A stretch of DNA of 64,000 nucleotides from Nakamurella deserti (GTDB taxonomy: Bacteria > Actinomycetota > Actinomycetes > Mycobacteriales > Nakamurellaceae), in the NCBI RefSeq assembly GCF_003260015.1, contig NZ_QCXS01000003.1, forward strand, positions 362,315 through 426,314, read 5' to 3'. Position 1 is the first letter of the stretch, and every line of letters begins with the position of its first letter. A model generated the notes under the pieces. That model was not told where the DNA came from. It saw only the letters and a program-made list of their open reading frames with translations, and ran no database searches. This document shows positions 5,921-37,175 of this stretch, piece by piece. Both the position numbers and the translations under genes were made by a program.

Positions 5921-7300
5921 TCAGACGAAGATCGTCTTGGCCTGGTCCTCGAGGCTGTTGGTCACGGAGTCGACGTCGCCGTCCTTGAGGAACTGCTGCA
6001 GGGCGGGGATGACGACCGGGCTGGCGAAGTCCGGGCGGGTGTCGCGGTCGAGGAACTGCGAGATGTTCTTGGCCGAGCTGATCAGCTCGACGGCCTTCTT
6101 CTGCAGCGGGCTGTAGCCGCTGGTGTCGGCGGTCTTGTTGGCCGCGACGTTGGACGGATCACCGCCCAGGTACTGCAGCTGCGCCTCGGGGGACGCCAGG
6201 TAGGTCAGCAGCGCCCTGCTCTGGTCGGTGAGGCCCTTGCTCGACGCGAGGAAGCCGTCGATCGGGGCCTCGACCGCGTCGGCGCCGATGGTGGAGTCGA
6301 TCTCCGGGAAGGCGAAGAAGTCGAGGTCGTCGTACTCCTCGGTGGGCATCTGCTGGCCGACGAACATGCCGAGCAGGTACATGCCGGCTTCCTTCTTGAC
6401 CATCGACTGCGCCGCCTCCTGCCAGGTGCGGCCCAGCGGGTCGGACTGGTGCAGCGGCAGCAGGCCCTTCCAGGTGTCGAAGACGGTCTTGACCTTGGGA
6501 TCGGTCCAGGCCTCCTTGTGCGCCATCAGGTCCATGTGGAACTGGTAGCCGTTGGTGCGCATGTTGAGGTAGTCGAACGTGCCCATCGCGGGCCAGCCGT
6601 CCTTGTCGCCGAACGCGATCGGGGCGAGGCCGTCGGCCTGCATCGTGGCGCCGAGGGTCTTGAGCTCGTCCAGCGTCGTGGGGACCTCGTAGCCCTTCTC
6701 CTCGAACAGGCTCTTCCGGTAGAAGAAGGCCCACGGGTAGTTGTAGAACGGCACGAAGTACTTGTTGCCGTCGGCGGCGGTGGAGGCGTTGATGAAGCCC
6801 TCCGAGTACTGGTCCTCGAACCCGGCCCAGACGTCGTCGATGGGGGTCAGCAGGCCCTGCTCGGCGAAGAACTGCATGCGGTTGCCGGCGAACCAGGTGA
6901 ACAGCTCGTCGGGGCTGCCCTGCAGGTAGTTGTTGATGTTCTCCTGGAAGGAGTTGTGGTCGACGGTGTTGACGTTGACCGTCGTGCCCGACTGCTCGGT
7001 GAACTTGGCGAAGACGGCCTCGTAGGCCTTCTTCGGCACCTCGTCGGACAGGTTGGACCCGAAGGAGACGGAGCCGCCGACCTGTCCACCGCCGGCGGCG
7101 GAACCGCCGGTCGCCGAGCCGGCGGCCGAGGCGGTGCTGGTGGAGGTGGCGGAGGTGTTCCCGCCGTTGGACGTGCCGGTGCAGCTGGACAGCAGCGGGA
7201 CGGCGGCCGCACCGGCCACGCCCATGCCCATCAGCCGCAGCATCGACCGGCGGTTCATGCCGGTCTTGCGCAGCAGAGCATCGAAATCAGAACCAGTCAT
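5921..7300 (-). CDS. Extracellular solute-binding lipoprotein (Tat), sugar ABC transporter
   Basis: This 459-residue protein is the substrate-binding component of a CUT1 sugar importer. The signal region carries a twin-arginine motif (NRRSMLRL, arginines at 17-18), a hydrophobic core and a lipobox ending at C40 (PLLSSC). The protein should therefore be exported folded by Tat and lipid-anchored. A Ser/Gly/Thr-rich linker of about 35 residues follows, then the binding domain. I chose ATG 7300 because GGAGGT lies 5-10 bases upstream; an upstream in-frame start has no such site. It is the first gene of the galactoside operon and has a readable promoter and operator 60-90 bases upstream. The substrate is probably galactosides, inferred from neighbours. 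Confidence 0.92.
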   Translation of the reverse strand: MTGSDFDALLRKTGMNRRSMLRLMGMGVAGAAAVPLLSSCTGTSNGGNTSATSTSTASAAGSATGGSAAGGGQVGGSVSFGSNLSDEVPKKAYEAVFAKFTEQSGTTVNVNTVDHNSFQENINNYLQGSPDELFTWFAGNRMQFFAEQGLLTPIDDVWAGFEDQYSEGFINASTAADGNKYFVPFYNYPWAFFYRKSLFEEKGYEVPTTLDELKTLGATMQADGLAPIAFGDKDGWPAMGTFDYLNMRTNGYQFHMDLMAHKEAWTDPKVKTVFDTWKGLLPLHQSDPLGRTWQEAAQSMVKKEAGMYLLGMFVGQQMPTEEYDDLDFFAFPEIDSTIGADAVEAPIDGFLASSKGLTDQSRALLTYLASPEAQLQYLGGDPSNVAANKTADTSGYSPLQKKAVELISSAKNISQFLDRDTRPDFASPVVIPALQQFLKDGDVDSVTNSLEDQAKTIFV

Positions 7301-7343
7301 CGTTGACCTCCGGATCGGACGAAGCACACCAGTGCCGCCCACC

Positions 7344-7388
7344 TGTGTTGAGTGAACACAATCTGTCAGTGACCGATGGTGAAGTCAA
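7344..7388 (-). promoter_or_regulatory. Promoter with overlapping DeoR-type operator for the galactoside operon
   Basis: On the minus strand a TTGACT -35 box (7383-7388) and a CAGATT -10 box (7360-7365) are separated by exactly 17 bases. A perfect dyad TGTGTT-GAGTG-AACACA (7344-7360) abuts the -10 box and covers the expected start point. That is the classic position for repression. Binding by the operon's DeoR protein is inferred. Confidence 0.6.
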
Positions 7389-7633
7389 CAGGCCGTCGTC
7401 TCGGATTGATAACGTCACCAGCACTGCTGTCCGGTGCCGGCGCACCGGCGGCGCCGCTGTCCATCCGAAACATGTCCCGGCTGACCGCACCCCGACTGAC
7501 CAGCAGCGACGTTCGCCGTCATCGCTGTACCGCGAAAGTTCGACCGGCGTCGGCCGCGGTGTCGACGGGTCTTCTACACGGCCACCTGCGTGGACACAAG
7601 CTGTAACACGCGCCACAGAGCTGGCGGTGTCGA

Positions 7634-28925: not shown

Positions 28926-30323
28926 ATGGACGCCGACCGCATCAGGACCCTGTTCCTCGAGTTCATGGCCGAGAACGGCCACGTGATCATCCCGCGCGCA
29001 CCCCTGGTGCCGGCCGACGACCCGAGCACCCTGTTCACCGGGAGCGGCATGCAGCCGCTGCTGCCGTACCTGCTCGGCGCCGAGCACCCGGCCGGGCAGC
29101 GGCTGGCCGACAGCCAGACGTGCCTGCGCGCCCAGGACATCGAGGAGGTCGGCGACAACCGGCACACCACGTTCTTCGAGATGCTGGGCAACTGGAGCCT
29201 CGGCGACTACTTCAAGCGAGAGCAGATCCGTCAGGTGTGGACGTTCCTCACCGACCGGGTCGGCCTGGACCCGGAACGCATCTACGTCACCTGCTTCATC
29301 GGTGACGAGGCGCACGGCATCGGAAAGGACACCGAGGCCGCCGCCATCTGGACCGAGCTGTTCACCGCCGCCGGCATCAGCGCCGGCACCGCCGAGGTCG
29401 GGACCGAGGAGCACGCCGCCGCGGTCGGCACCGGCGGCGCGCGGATCGCCTTCTACGGCAAGAAGAACTGGTGGTGCCGGGGCGGCTCGGCGGAGCACAT
29501 GCCGGTCGGCGAGCCCGGCGGGCCCGACTCGGAGATGTTCTACCTGTTCCCGGAGGTCGAACACGACCCCGCCTACGGCGAGCACTGCCACCAGAACTGC
29601 GACTGCGGCCGGTTCATCGAGATCGGCAACTCGGTGTTCATGGAGTACCGCCGCACCGCCGACGGGTTCGAGCCGCTGCCCCGCCGGAACGTCGACTTCG
29701 GCGGCGGGCTCGCCCGGATCGCGGCCGCGTCGATGGGCACCTCGGACGTGTTCCGGATCAGCCTGCTGTGGCCGATCGTGGCCCGGTTGGAGGAGCTGTC
29801 CGGGAAGAGCTACGAGGAGGCAACGGCGTCGATGCGCATCGTCGCCGACCACCTGAGGGGTGCGACGTTCCTGGCCGCCGACGGGGTGCGACCGAGCAAC
29901 AAGGCGCAGGGCTACGTGATGCGCCGGCTGGTCCGGCGGGCCGTCCGCTACGCCTTCGACCTGGGCCTCGAGCAGGACTTCCTGCCCCGCATCGTCCCCA
30001 CCGTCGTCGGCATCTACGAGCACTCCTACCCGGAGCTGCACCGGCACGAGGCCGAGATCGTCGCCGTCCTGGTCAAGGAGGAGAAGGCGTTCCGCCGCAG
30101 CCTGACCAAGGGGCTCAAGCAGCTGCGCGGACTGCGCCGCACGGGCGCGACCGGGTCCGACCTGTTCACTCTGCACGACACCTTCGGCTTCCCGGTCGAG
30201 CTGTCGACCGAGGAGGCCGGCCGGAGCGGCGTCACCCTGTCCGTGGACTGGCAGGCCGAGTTCGACGCGGCGATGGAGGACCAGCGGCTGCGTTCGCGCG
30301 GAGCCTCCGTCATGCATCCGTGA
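28926..30323 (+). CDS. Truncated alanyl-tRNA synthetase paralog (no editing or C-Ala domain)
   Basis: The 465-residue class II protein covers only the aminoacylation and tRNA-recognition parts of AlaRS; full enzymes have about 880 residues. Motif 2 is RHTTFFEMLGNWSLGDYFK (79-97). Motif 3 is GGGLARI (259-265), with Ala where AlaRS usually has Glu. GYVMRRLVRRAVRY (329-342) and LHDTFGFPVEL (416-426) match AlaRS. The chain ends at FDAAMEDQRLRSR, where the AlaRS catalytic fragment ends. An HCHQNCDCGRF cluster (220-230) with a nearby His/Cys set may bind metal. ATG 28926 starts at the conserved region. A tRNA-like RNA gene follows 58 bases after the stop. I infer that it aminoacylates that RNA; translation use is unlikely because no editing domain is present. 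Confidence 0.9.
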   Translation: MDADRIRTLFLEFMAENGHVIIPRAPLVPADDPSTLFTGSGMQPLLPYLLGAEHPAGQRLADSQTCLRAQDIEEVGDNRHTTFFEMLGNWSLGDYFKREQIRQVWTFLTDRVGLDPERIYVTCFIGDEAHGIGKDTEAAAIWTELFTAAGISAGTAEVGTEEHAAAVGTGGARIAFYGKKNWWCRGGSAEHMPVGEPGGPDSEMFYLFPEVEHDPAYGEHCHQNCDCGRFIEIGNSVFMEYRRTADGFEPLPRRNVDFGGGLARIAAASMGTSDVFRISLLWPIVARLEELSGKSYEEATASMRIVADHLRGATFLAADGVRPSNKAQGYVMRRLVRRAVRYAFDLGLEQDFLPRIVPTVVGIYEHSYPELHRHEAEIVAVLVKEEKAFRRSLTKGLKQLRGLRRTGATGSDLFTLHDTFGFPVELSTEEAGRSGVTLSVDWQAEFDAAMEDQRLRSRGASVMHP

Positions 30324-30328
30324 CCGGT

Positions 30329-30360
30329 CTGCGCGGCCGGGTTGCCAACCGGTCGCGCAG
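30329..30360 (+). terminator. Long hairpin after the AlaRS paralog
   Basis: CTGCGCG pairs with CGCGCAG, a G-T pair follows, then CCGG/CCGG and TT/AA around a GCC loop with one bulged G. This gives about 14 stem pairs beginning 5 bases after the stop. It probably ends or protects the synthetase mRNA. It overlaps the -35 box of the following RNA gene. Confidence 0.6.
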
Positions 30361-30371
30361 ATGGGTAGTGT
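30342..30371 (+). promoter_or_regulatory. Sigma70-like promoter of the tRNA-like RNA
   Basis: TTGCCA (30342-30347, one mismatch to TTGACA), an 18-base spacer and TAGTGT (30366-30371, matching TAnnnT) lie in front of the RNA. The predicted first base of the RNA, G30382, is 11 bases past the -10 box. The transcript may therefore start at or a few bases before the mature 5-prime end. Confidence 0.55.
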
Positions 30372-30381
30372 TGCGCCCCTC

Positions 30382-30435
30382 GGGGGATGCGCACTTGGGG
30401 CGCCTCGCTAGGTTCAAGTCCTAGGTCCTCCACCA
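30382..30435 (+). ncRNA. 54-nt tRNA-like RNA with G3:U70 acceptor stem, T-arm and CCA; no normal anticodon arm
   Basis: GGGGGAT (30382-30388) pairs over all seven positions with GTCCTCC (30425-30431). The third pair is G:U, the identity element of tRNA-Ala. A73 (30432) and an encoded CCA (30433-30435) follow. The T-arm is canonical: stem CTAGG/CCTAG (30408-30412 and 30420-30424) and loop TTCAAGT. Only 19 bases lie between the acceptor and T-arms. They can form a 4-base GCGC stem with a 7-base loop ACTTGGG, which lacks U33. D and anticodon arms are therefore missing or reduced to one tiny arm. It lies 58 bases after an AlaRS-like gene and has its own promoter and terminator. AlaRS is known to charge minihelices through G3:U70, so charging with alanine is plausible; its role is unknown. 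Confidence 0.75.
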
Positions 30436-30438
30436 CCT

Positions 30439-30480
30439 CGAGAACCGCTCCCCGCTCCGGCGGGGGGCGGTTCTCGTGTT
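30439..30480 (+). terminator. Intrinsic terminator of the tRNA-like RNA
   Basis: A 17-pair stem (30439-30455 with 30460-30476, one T-G pair) and a TCCG loop are followed by TGTTT. It begins 3 bases after the CCA and cleanly ends the RNA unit. The bases from 30481 to 30581 show no gene. Confidence 0.85.
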
Positions 30481-30581: not shown

Positions 30582-31829
30582 CTACCCGTCGGTCTTCGGC
30601 GCCTTGTCGGCGGTCGGGACCTGCTCCTGCAGATCGGCGATCTTCTGCGGATCCTGCGCCTCCATCCAGGCGATGACGTCCTGGTAGGTCGTGCAGATCG
30701 TCTCCGGCTGTCCGCAGGTCTCCTTCATGAACTGCTCGGCCGCCGGGTTGAACGAGTTGCCGTTCCAGTCGTTGAAGTGGTTGGCGATCAGGATGGGCGC
30801 CCGGTTGTCGTGGTAGGCCTGCTGGTACATGAAGCGGTAGGTGTCCAGCACGAGCTGGGTGAGCTGCGGCTGGGTCTCCGGCTGCTCCTGGGCCTCGTTG
30901 AACTTGTACCAGAAGTTGTAGTCCATGGCCTTGACCAGCGGTGAGTAGCCGGCGTCGGCGAACGCCTGGGAGTAGATGGTGGGGATCGGGAACTGCCAGA
31001 TCCCGTTCTCCTTGGTCGGCCACGAGATGCCGGTGTACGGGCTCTCGCCCGAGGTGTCGTAGGTCATGCCGTGCGACTGCCAGGACGGGATCAACTGGTC
31101 GAACTGGCCGGCCAGGCACGGGGTGCGGCCGCCCTTGACCTCCTCGACCGGGATCTTGAGGTCGGGACCGTCGGTGATCCCGTTGACCGCCTTGTAGTCG
31201 GTGAACCAGCTCAGGAACTGGTCGAGCTCGCTGTTCCACTCCGCGGTCGACCAGTTGGCGCCCAGCTCGCAGAAGTGCCCGTTGTAGTGGGTGCCGACCT
31301 CGTTGCCCAGCGCGTAGAAGTTGTTCAGGTCGTCGACGCGCTGGATGACCTCGGCCCGGTCGCCGCCGAAGCCGATGGACGACGTACCGGGCGTGGTGCC
31401 GGGCGCGGCGTAGGCGTCGGCGTGGTCGTCGGTGAGCAGGTAGGTGCCCGACAGGAAGCCGGTGAAGCGGCTGTCGGTGGGAGCGGCCGCGGCGAGGAAC
31501 TCCTGCATCTTGCTGTGGCTGCCGGCGCCGTCGAAGGAGAAGATGACGAACTGCGGGACCTTGGTGCCCTTGGGGATCTTGTCCATCGGGACGTTCGAGG
31601 GCTTCGGGGTGATCCAGCGGTCGTCGGTGATCTCGGCCTGCGGTACCGCCCCGTCCGGGAGCGGCGCCGCCGACGCCTCGTCCACGCTCTCCGCCTGCGG
31701 CGCGGGCGGCGGCGTGGTGCCGGACAGTCCGGTCGCCGACGTCGCGCTCGACGTCTGCGCGATCAGCACCCCGGTGACGACGGTCAGGATCACCGCGGCC
31801 ACCAGGCCGGCCAGTCGTCCTCGGTTCAC
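30582..31829 (-). CDS. Exported polysaccharide deacetylase-like protein
   Basis: This 415-residue protein has an N-terminal hydrophobic helix (LAGLVAAVILTVVTGVLIA) that acts as an anchor or signal, then a Pro/Ala-rich linker. The NodB-like domain starts at VPQFVIFSFDGAGSH (near residue 91), with the metal/base aspartate in FDGAG. The zinc-type motif is THYNGHF near residue 177. The long insertions are typical of actinobacterial secreted relatives. It would act on cell-wall or extracellular glycans. GTG 31829 has GGGAGGG upstream. It is convergent with the tRNA-like RNA gene. Confidence 0.8.
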   Translation of the reverse strand: MNRGRLAGLVAAVILTVVTGVLIAQTSSATSATGLSGTTPPPAPQAESVDEASAAPLPDGAVPQAEITDDRWITPKPSNVPMDKIPKGTKVPQFVIFSFDGAGSHSKMQEFLAAAAPTDSRFTGFLSGTYLLTDDHADAYAAPGTTPGTSSIGFGGDRAEVIQRVDDLNNFYALGNEVGTHYNGHFCELGANWSTAEWNSELDQFLSWFTDYKAVNGITDGPDLKIPVEEVKGGRTPCLAGQFDQLIPSWQSHGMTYDTSGESPYTGISWPTKENGIWQFPIPTIYSQAFADAGYSPLVKAMDYNFWYKFNEAQEQPETQPQLTQLVLDTYRFMYQQAYHDNRAPILIANHFNDWNGNSFNPAAEQFMKETCGQPETICTTYQDVIAWMEAQDPQKIADLQEQVPTADKAPKTDG

Positions 31830-31960
31830 AGCTGCACCCTCCCGCGGCCGCCCGGCGTTCGGCGGGTGGTGTCGCCACCCGCGTCCGCGTCCAGAATCGC
31901 AGGTCAGCGCGCCCGTCCGGGGTGGACGCGCCGACCACGGCGGTGGCGGGCACCGGACGA

Positions 31961-32100
31961 TCAGCCCAGGGCCTCGACCTCGGTGAGCACGGCGGCGCCA
32001 AGGGCCGCGGCGGCGGTGGGTGCGGGTCGCTAAGCCCAGGGCCTCGACCTCGGCGAGCACGTTGGCGCCAAGGGCCACGGCGGCGGTGGGCGCGGGTCGA
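31961..32100 (-). repeat. Two 70-bp copies of the aspartate decarboxylase gene end
   Basis: The motif TCAGCCCAGGGC (stop codon plus last codons on the minus strand) recurs exactly every 70 bases at 31961, 32031 (as TAAGCCCAGG) and 32101, where it is the real gene end. Translated, the outer copy reads AALGAAVLTEVEALG-stop against AAVGTAVLAVVDALG-stop in the gene. The copies are therefore diverged duplications of the last 23 or so codons. The rest of 31830-31960 shows nothing. Confidence 0.85.
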
Positions 32101-33645
32101 TCAGCCCAGGGCGTCGACCACGGCGAGCACGGCGGTACCGACGGCGGCGGCGTCCGCGGCGGTCAGCGAGGCCAGCGACAGCCGGAGGTCCCAGGGCGCC
32201 GCCCGGAAGCTGGACCCGGGTTGCACGATCACGCCGTGATCAGTGGCCAGTCTGAGCGCCACCGCCCCGGGGTCGACCTCGGCCTCCAACCGATCGGCGA
32301 AGGCGTCGCCCCGGCGGGCCCGGGCGACGGCCAGCACGTCGACGATCGCGTAGTACATGCTGTCGGTCCCCCCGGGCGGTGCCACGCCGAAGGCCCCCAT
32401 CAGGGCGTCCATCCGCCGCGCCAGCTCCCGGCGGGTGGCCTGCACGTAGGCGTCCCCGCCCGGCATCAGGAAGGCGAGTTCGAAGAACGTCATCTGCACC
32501 TGGTCGGGGGTGGCCAGGCCGGCGATGTTGTGCAGCGCCACCTCGCGGCTGTCGGCCACGAGCCGACGCAGGAACGACAGGTTGTCCACGTCCGCGGTGA
32601 CCGGGGCGTAGCGGATGCGCAGCGCGTCCTTGGTGTCGTCGGGCAGGGCGGCCAGCGCCTCGTCGGCGACGCTGTCCTCGTGCACGGCGAGGAACCCGAC
32701 CCGGTTGCCGGTGCCGGCGAAGTTCTTGGAGAACGAGTGCAGCACGACGACGTTGCGCGGGAGCACCGCGGTGATGCCGCGGTAGCCCTCGACGAACGTC
32801 GAGTAGGCGGTGTCGACGACGATCAACAGGTCGGGCCGCCTGGTCTCGACGAGCTCACGGAGCTGCTCCAGACGCTCCGGACGCATCGCCCGGCTGTCGG
32901 GGTTGCCCGGGTTGATGACGAAGAAGACCTTGATCCGGGGGTCGAGGAGCTTCAGCAGCACCTCGTCGTCGAAGCGGTAGGACCGGTTGTGGGCGGCGTC
33001 GATGTCCACGACCGTGAAGCCGTACGACTGCAGCACCGGGATCTGCAGGTACGGGGTGAAGGTCGGGGTGGCGATGGCCACCGCATCCCCCGGGCCCACG
33101 ATCCGGTTCTCCAGGAGGGTCTTGAACACGTAGGTCATCGCGGCGGCGCCGCCCTCCGTCGCGAACACCCGGAACCGGTGCGACGGGGCGACCGGCGAAC
33201 CGGTGAAGGTCAGCAGGTACCGCTCGGCCACCTTCTCCAGGTGCGTCAGCATCGACGTCGGCGACGGATAGCCGAAGCCCAGGACGGCGCGCACCAACTC
33301 GTGCACCCAGGCGTCGGGCTCGAAGCCGAGTTGCTCGGCGGCGTAGCGGACGGCCTCGGCCAGGAACACCGCCCCGGTGCTGTCGTCGCCCGCCAGGTCG
33401 GCGGTGAGCCGGTCCGCGATCCCGGCGGCGGAGGGCATCTCCCCCCATTCCGGGCGGCCACCGGCGGCGGCGGCTTCGGCGACCGCGAACTGCCCGAGCC
33501 GGAAGAAGCCCGCCCGGGGAGCGACGGCCGTCCAGTTCGGCTGACCCCGACCGGCGTCGATGACGGGGTGACCGGAGGCGTGCGCCGCGGCGTTGACCCT
33601 CGCCTGCAGGGTGAACGGTGTCGCGCTCGCGGGGGTCGGGTCCAT
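32101..33645 (-). CDS. asdA: Aspartate 4-decarboxylase / aspartate aminotransferase
   Basis: This 514-residue PLP enzyme is longer than ordinary class I aminotransferases and fits bifunctional aspartate 4-decarboxylases, which convert aspartate to alanine and CO2. It has the N-terminal DAGRGQPNW motif, an ATPTFTPYLQIP segment, an FVINPGNPDSRAM motif and the PLP lysine in SFSKNFAGTGNRVGF (near residue 320). GAGG lies 7 bases before the ATG. The gene produces alanine and lies 1.7 kb from the AlaRS-like/tRNA-like pair; a functional link is only speculative. Its 3-prime end is duplicated downstream. Confidence 0.87.
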   Translation of the reverse strand: MDPTPASATPFTLQARVNAAAHASGHPVIDAGRGQPNWTAVAPRAGFFRLGQFAVAEAAAAGGRPEWGEMPSAAGIADRLTADLAGDDSTGAVFLAEAVRYAAEQLGFEPDAWVHELVRAVLGFGYPSPTSMLTHLEKVAERYLLTFTGSPVAPSHRFRVFATEGGAAAMTYVFKTLLENRIVGPGDAVAIATPTFTPYLQIPVLQSYGFTVVDIDAAHNRSYRFDDEVLLKLLDPRIKVFFVINPGNPDSRAMRPERLEQLRELVETRRPDLLIVVDTAYSTFVEGYRGITAVLPRNVVVLHSFSKNFAGTGNRVGFLAVHEDSVADEALAALPDDTKDALRIRYAPVTADVDNLSFLRRLVADSREVALHNIAGLATPDQVQMTFFELAFLMPGGDAYVQATRRELARRMDALMGAFGVAPPGGTDSMYYAIVDVLAVARARRGDAFADRLEAEVDPGAVALRLATDHGVIVQPGSSFRAAPWDLRLSLASLTAADAAAVGTAVLAVVDALG

Positions 33646-37099: not shown

Positions 37100-37175
37100 T
37101 GGTGGAGCTGCGGGGAATCGAACCCCGGACCTCTTCGATGCGAACGAAGCGCGCTACCAACTGCGCTACAGCCCC
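37100..37175 (-). tRNA. tRNA-Ala (anticodon CGC)
   Basis: Read on the minus strand, the sequence folds fully. The acceptor is GGGGCTG/CAGCTCC with G3:U70, followed by a D-arm with AGTTGGTA. The anticodon stem is CTTCG/CGAAG with loop TTCGCAT (anticodon CGC), and the T-arm is CGGGG/CCCCG with loop TTCGATT. Discriminator A and an encoded CCA (37100-37102) complete it. It reads GCG codons and is a standard tRNA, which makes a useful contrast with the tRNA-like RNA at 30382. Confidence 0.97.

Follow-up and report, generated by a model that had tools for sequence, protein, structure and literature searches.

Synthetase paralogs and MprF-type transferases

The closest precedents for the system described here are LysX and the VlmL/VlmA pair of valanimycin, the latter of which uses ordinary tRNA. 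The tRNA-like domain of tmRNA is an alanine acceptor with G3:U70 and without an anticodon arm, and tmRNA itself is a long RNA that has a tag reading frame and is charged by the housekeeping alanyl-tRNA synthetase (AlaRS). Charging by AlaRS needs no anticodon. The esterase gene pesT of Corynebacterium glutamicum is, we assume, a neighbour of alaDAGS. In LysX, a synthetase paralog has the dedicated task of supplying aminoacyl-tRNA to lipid aminoacylation of the MprF type (PMC10580965, PMC9437257), and VlmL/VlmA joins a separate SerRS paralog to an MprF-like transferase (PMC2922099). In the AlaDAGS/PesT system of C. glutamicum an MprF homologue puts alanine on diacylglycerol/phosphatidylglycerol (PMC10580965, PMC12637418), and joint deletion of pesT and alaDAGS removed the alanyl lipids (PMC10580965).

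The window, which is the whole stretch of 64,000 nt from Nakamurella deserti that was analysed, contains an AlaRS paralog and a 54-nt RNA (Table 1). All the features that the original prediction had given for this RNA (54 nt, G3:U70, A73, encoded CCA and T-arm) were confirmed. It had overlooked a 4-bp D-like stem with a loop of 7-8 nt, as well as the separate location of RNA and paralog in the other same-genus genomes. The open reading frame and the Pfam search agree with its description of a 465-residue AlaRS paralog lacking the editing and C-Ala domains, and the coordinates give the same 58 nt between the paralog stop and the RNA start.

Table 1. Features of the AlaRS paralog and RNA locus, in positions of the window
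Feature	Position	Strand	Remarks
AlaRS paralog, 465 aa	28926..30323	+	ATG 28926, stop 30323; class II catalytic core and tRNA-recognition domain
Promoter-like pair	30342..30371	+	TTGCCA-N18-TAGTGT, just 5' of the RNA
54-nt anticodonless alanine-type tRNA	30382-30435	+	RNA-family comparison
RNA acceptor stem, 7 bp	30382-30388/30425-30431	+	GGGGGAU/GUCCUCC with G3:U70
RNA D-like stem	30389-30392/30400-30403	+	
RNA T-stem, 5 bp	30408-30412/30420-30424	+	T-arm CUAGG-UUCAAGU-CCUAG, 7-nt T-loop
RNA A73	30432	+	
RNA encoded CCA	30433-30435	+	
G+C-rich terminator-like hairpin, about 16 bp	30440..30475	+	3' of the RNA
498-aa ORF	30582-32078	-	between the RNA and aspartate 4-decarboxylase
Aspartate 4-decarboxylase (aspartate to alanine)	32101..33645	-	1.7 kb past the RNA

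The anticodonless RNA and its AlaRS paralog

When folded as a single sequence, the 54-mer was no more stable than its shuffles (z -0.75) and had a different minimum-energy fold. ARAGORN and Rfam did not report the RNA in the window, and a relaxed threshold also gave no tRNA family at this place, RF00005 included. Neither program found a tmRNA in the window. A tRNA-Ala (CGC) at 37100-37175 on the minus strand, 6.7 kb from the mini-tRNA, is the only ordinary tRNA that ARAGORN placed in the window. We judge the RNA to be real because the comparison with its relatives supports it; the lone sequence is a weak guide.

A covariance model (R1) was made from seven same-genus RNA copies and detected the RNA in other actinobacterial families; a later model (R2) was run on Pseudonocardia. 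Altogether 28 copies were found and 27 were aligned (20 distinct), the copy from G338 being left out as identical to that of L130. All three helices are kept in the 27 copies and 99.7% of the 320 pairing cells form, while slid structures were 41-62% paired. Two-sided changes occur at 6 of the 16 pairs, which was matched by 2 of 500 shuffles, and the covariation score of 0.311 (0.115 in shuffles) was reached by none of 500. The count of further pair types, which was one of five measures, showed no excess (11 vs 10.8 in shuffles). RNAalifold, unprompted, returned the same three-helix structure from 13 copies. The acceptor stem barely varies, so that its pairing is outside the reach of covariation; the D-like and T stems show compensatory variation, and three of the five T-stem pairs differ in the group of G135, Williamsia, G637 and G369.

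Compared with a canonical tRNA (RF00005), the 7-bp acceptor stem and the 5-bp T-arm are present and the anticodon arm is absent. This absence holds for 27/27 copies, in which only 4-5 nt join the D-like stem to the T-stem. Alanine identity in bacteria is given by A73, G2-C71, G3:U70 and G4-C69, plus G20 (PMC9976931). The first four of these elements are invariant in the aligned copies, with G3:U70 and A73 in 27/27, and C74 is also found in 27/27. With R1 the members of the family scored 49.8-87.5 bits, ordinary tRNAs up to about 25 bits and the best other match 32.5 bits. By eye, the copies at L243, L244 and L246 have the T-loop UGCGA instead of UUCRA and a D-loop from which the usual GGG is missing, a pattern that looks like a concerted change of the elbow contact.

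Hits in G265 and G021 (E 7e-4, 32 bits) were set aside, one having a different acceptor stem and the other being coding-like. The stretch at G265:C1:1119635-1119689 (L126; L263 from 9036) is tRNA-like, lacks an anticodon arm and has the acceptor stem GCCGCGU/GCGCGGC; it overlaps the end of an ORF and is followed by a terminator-like hairpin. No homologue of the system's AlaRS, transferase, esterase or decarboxylase was found in 18 kb at this site.

A promoter-like pair of the form TTGNNN-N16-19-TANNNT lies at most 60 nt upstream of 20 of the 27 RNAs (mean 0.3 and maximum 3 in 500 mono-nucleotide shuffles), a count that includes some near-identical relatives and a few pairs lying farther upstream than expected. 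A hairpin is found 3' of many copies, and the stretch of the window that includes it had a folding z of -3.5 vs shuffles. A reading of the RNA as tmRNA was rejected, as the 54-nt RNA is followed by a terminator-like hairpin and there is no long RNA carrying a tag reading frame.

The paralog matched positions 2-431 of the 552 in PF01411 with 355 bits (cut-off 30.3). PF01411 is its sole Pfam family, and the protein, which stops at 465 aa, showed neither an editing nor a C-Ala domain. With the NCBIfam AlaRS models its scores were below the curated cut-offs. A PDB search matched it to a 441-aa fragment of Escherichia coli AlaRS (E 7e-73), with chain residues 6-439 aligned. A second, full-size housekeeping AlaRS is encoded elsewhere in the same genome. 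Of 23 paralogs, 22 have retained the equivalents of N303 and D400 of E. coli AlaRS (numbered with Met), which we take to be the residues that read G3:U70; the exception, in G135, has S and E at these positions.

Outside the actinobacterial paralogs, the nearest sequences are AlaRS of Saccharibacteria and other Patescibacteria (NF002436-like), which are presumably those cells' own AlaRS and differ by a longer C-terminus, most being 590-665 aa. The C-termini of the actinobacterial paralogs differ from that of the window's protein by at most 2 aa or fall a few residues short of it. In a tree of the catalytic core the paralogs nest among the patescibacterial enzymes in two places: those of Subtercola, Brachybacterium and Brevibacterium group with one Saccharibacteria/Patescibacteria pair (support 1.0), and the remaining ones with the small genome DBS2-1.bin125 (0.99). 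This topology suggests that the gene was transferred twice and that the C-terminus was lost. Since the RNA is also found in Subtercola, which belongs to the first group, the two-transfer view needs a second explanation for the RNA. Searches of phage, plasmid and IMG/VR sequences gave no close relative, the best full-length match having 45% identity, and a mobile-element reading was therefore dropped.

The occurrence of the two genes was compared in several samples. The genus of the window, which is alone in its family in the collection, was represented by 17 genomes; nine carry the paralog (E<=1e-100; 69-77% identity in the eight other carriers) and seven carry the RNA (84-100% identity), all seven being among the nine. 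In the order sample of 298 genomes, which includes this genus, R1 gave 11 RNA hits, of which the nine at E<=1e-7 all fall within the 11 paralog carriers. Among 62 Pseudonocardia genomes, the 11 with the RNA (R2) are the same 11 in which the protein search found the paralog; the genus was recognised from the named loci L040 and L043, which share their RNA coordinates with G338 and G364. Fisher tests that ignore phylogeny gave 0.0019 for the genus, 1.2e-15 for the order and 2.0e-12 for Pseudonocardia. In the class sample the RNA was found in 8 of 394 genomes; apart from the window and G135, it lies beside a paralog of 71-76% identity in G629, G717, G658 and G555, and no paralog or transferase was found within 9 kb of it in G637 and G369. 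Williamsia soli has two copies of the RNA and Subtercola boreus one.

Six paralog carriers that were searched whole yielded no RNA hit: the own-genus draft genomes G011 and G015, two Rhodococcus, Brachybacterium and Brevibacterium. In the last three genera neither R1 nor R2 found a divergent form. In the Rhodococcus loci L033 and L034 the paralog (6001-7398) lies within a cobalamin-type cluster in which no family RNA was found; CobN, ferredoxin-like and methylase genes were scanned in the L033 cluster, and L034 has homologues.

The arrangement differs between lineages. In the window and in G135 the RNA is downstream of the paralog on the same strand, the two are convergent in Pseudonocardia, and they are divergent and about 92-121 nt apart in G629, G717, G658 and G555. 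At the eight other same-genus paralog loci no RNA was seen near the paralog (at L009 the contig ends 85 nt past the stop), and the whole-genome search placed it elsewhere in six of these eight genomes, on another contig or far from the paralog. In the Pseudonocardia genome G334 the RNA and the paralog are on different contigs. The paralog-RNA pair is conserved and real. The check proposed with the original prediction, a search for both genes with covariation analysis, thus found a conserved, covarying and co-occurring RNA, with adjacency in some lineages only. Absence of conservation or covariation had been named there as grounds for rejection, and this part of the comparison came out in its favour.

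Transferase and neighbouring genes

Clustering of the proteins from 34 neighbourhoods showed that the commonest partner, at 13/34 loci, carries PF09924, the MprF aminoacyl-lipid transferase domain. Since the genes for clustering were called with a simple script that missed some (e.g. the L192 transferase), counts were taken by tblastn. Among 30 paralog neighbourhoods, the fetched flank held a transferase in 15, a partial one in 1 (L188) and none in 14, the window included. Thirteen of the 15 belong to one linked clade, and those of L201 and L202 to another. The distance from the paralog is about 5-6 kb in L201 and L250. PF09924 scored 231-270 bits in five partner genes and 261 in a sixth (cut-off 27.5), and the LysRS catalytic domain was found in none of the six. 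Rhomboid-type matches were weak, mostly under the Pfam cut-off, in four of five transferases scanned, and the L201 transferase matched PF16995 (transmembrane region of lysyl-tRNA synthetase).

An esterase gene (PF00756) adjoins the transferase. In 9 of the 11 Pseudonocardia genomes esterase, transferase and RNA lie in this order on one strand, with 49 to about 105 nt separating the RNA from the transferase; another Pseudonocardia genome, G353, has a partial transferase gene. At this locus (L188, 10070-10894) tblastn matched the N-terminal part of the transferase only, the PF09924 part being unmatched. In G006, from the genus of the window, the RNA follows the transferase after 87 nt on the same strand and the paralog is 0.94 Mb away.

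Any PF09924 gene is found in 16 of the 17 own-genus genomes, including 7/8 without the paralog, which leaves only their clades informative. The 33 hits that the genus search gave were all included in a tree of the domain, along with 16 other rows, among which the Pseudonocardia sequences L186 and L190 are short slices. One transferase clade (support 0.99) is present in 9/9 paralog-positive vs 1/8 paralog-negative own-genus genomes (Fisher 0.0004, phylogeny ignored); the one paralog-negative carrier is G001. Together with the linked transferases of Pseudonocardia, Williamsia, G135 and G658 this clade is separate from all others (0.99). The member in the genome of the window is G000:C3:639246-640151, about 0.25 Mb away, and no RNA was found near it. 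A second PF09924 clade occurs in 6/9 paralog-positive vs 1/8 paralog-negative genomes (L218, L219, L220, L222, L223, L224).

Aspartate 4-decarboxylase is in or beside the system at 5 of 10 Pseudonocardia loci examined (L186, L187, L188, L191, L265), and it is possible that the enzyme is the alanine supply of the system. The 498-aa ORF next to it in the window had no Pfam or NCBIfam match at E 0.001.

Proposed function and comparison with known systems

As it has no anticodon, the RNA cannot decode and is outside normal decoding. The invariant acceptor identity elements, the anticodon-free charging by AlaRS and the kept N303 and D400 equivalents suggest, as the simplest reading, that the paralog alanylates the RNA. 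In the mechanism that we propose, the 54-nt RNA would be a free-standing alanine tRNA that lost its anticodon arm, and the short AlaRS paralog would recognise the G3:U70 acceptor stem and load alanine. The alanyl-RNA would then be the donor for an MprF-type (AlaDAGS-like, PF09924) membrane transferase that puts alanine on a membrane lipid, either diacylglycerol or phosphatidylglycerol. In the genome of the window this transferase is probably the linked-clade member named above, and the nearby aspartate 4-decarboxylase may feed alanine.

According to the original prediction, the RNA is charged by the paralog and in its aminoacylated form acts as a donor in a process other than translation; the sequence comparison supports this interpretation. 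Its range of acceptors (peptide-like or wall-like modification, or a signal) would narrow to a membrane lipid, because the MprF/AlaDAGS-like transferase is the commonest third gene and because the partner clade and the AlaDAGS precedent of C. glutamicum point to such an acceptor. We regard it as quite likely that the RNA is a dedicated anticodonless tRNA serving as alanine donor for membrane-lipid modification, insulated from translation. It is also probable that a minimal synthetase from Patescibacteria-like donors and a free-standing anticodonless tRNA form a lipid-only alanine channel separate from the ribosome.

Other readings share parts of this evidence. The alanyl-RNA might be made as proposed and its alanine passed to a cell-wall precursor, a protein or a small metabolite, given that MprF-fold transferases also use small molecules, as VlmA does with the SerRS paralog VlmL (PMC2922099). 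The 14 of 30 flanks without a transferase would also fit a non-lipid acceptor. We consider this unlikely in view of the membrane matches of Rhomboid type, weak and mostly sub-cut-off, in 4/5 transferases, and of the esterase gene that adjoins the transferases, as we take it to do in the alanyl-diacylglycerol system of C. glutamicum.

AlaRS without editing permits misacylation, and a paralog that has no editing domain could load another small amino acid, glycine or serine. The invariance of G2-C71, G3:U70, G4-C69 and A73 and the recurrence of the alanine-making decarboxylase make such a specificity very unlikely. It is hardly probable that the RNA stays uncharged and regulates, or acts as a decoy for, the paralog or the housekeeping AlaRS: although charging is a prediction and the RNA is often near its synthetase gene, A73 and C74 are kept in 27/27 copies together with a full acceptor stem and promoter-like sequence, and in six other own-genus genomes the RNA is on another contig than the paralog or far from it, in one of them beside a transferase. 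Pieces of the 3' part of tRNA mark integration sites and a lone copy resembles such a piece, but an ordinary-tRNA fragment left by an integrative element is extremely improbable and was rejected, the D-like and T stems covarying and being conserved across families and R1 scoring the RNAs far above ordinary tRNAs.

If the preferred reading of the RNA as a dedicated alanine donor for lipids is true, this tRNA would serve lipid modification alone, in physical separation from the ribosome. Such an RNA would represent a minimal tRNA in living cells, similar to the acceptor-T minihelix with which early tRNA is often modelled, and would offer a natural template for aminoacyl-RNA chemistry that does not involve the ribosome.

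We recognised no description of an AlaRS paralog with an anticodonless RNA in the open PMC literature, outside which most subscription papers lie. For AlaRS, the relevant part of a review of synthetase paralogs lists carrier-protein ligases alone (PMC9437257), and the pertinent sections of a review of odd tRNAs hold nothing similar (PMC7609411). Unlike tmRNA, the present RNA has a D-like stem and is encoded by a free-standing gene of 54 nt. The AlaDAGS/PesT system differs in that the passages describing it mention no dedicated AlaRS paralog or special RNA (PMC10580965, PMC12637418), and VlmL/VlmA in that the acceptor is a small molecule. LysX is a fused protein that is specific for lysine and retains the anticodon-binding fold, and its assays used ordinary tRNA, whereas the present system has separate genes, a synthetase of the AlaRS type and what is probably a dedicated anticodonless RNA. 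The theme of a synthetase paralog with an MprF-type transferase was thus already known; the dedicated anticodonless tRNA appears to be new.
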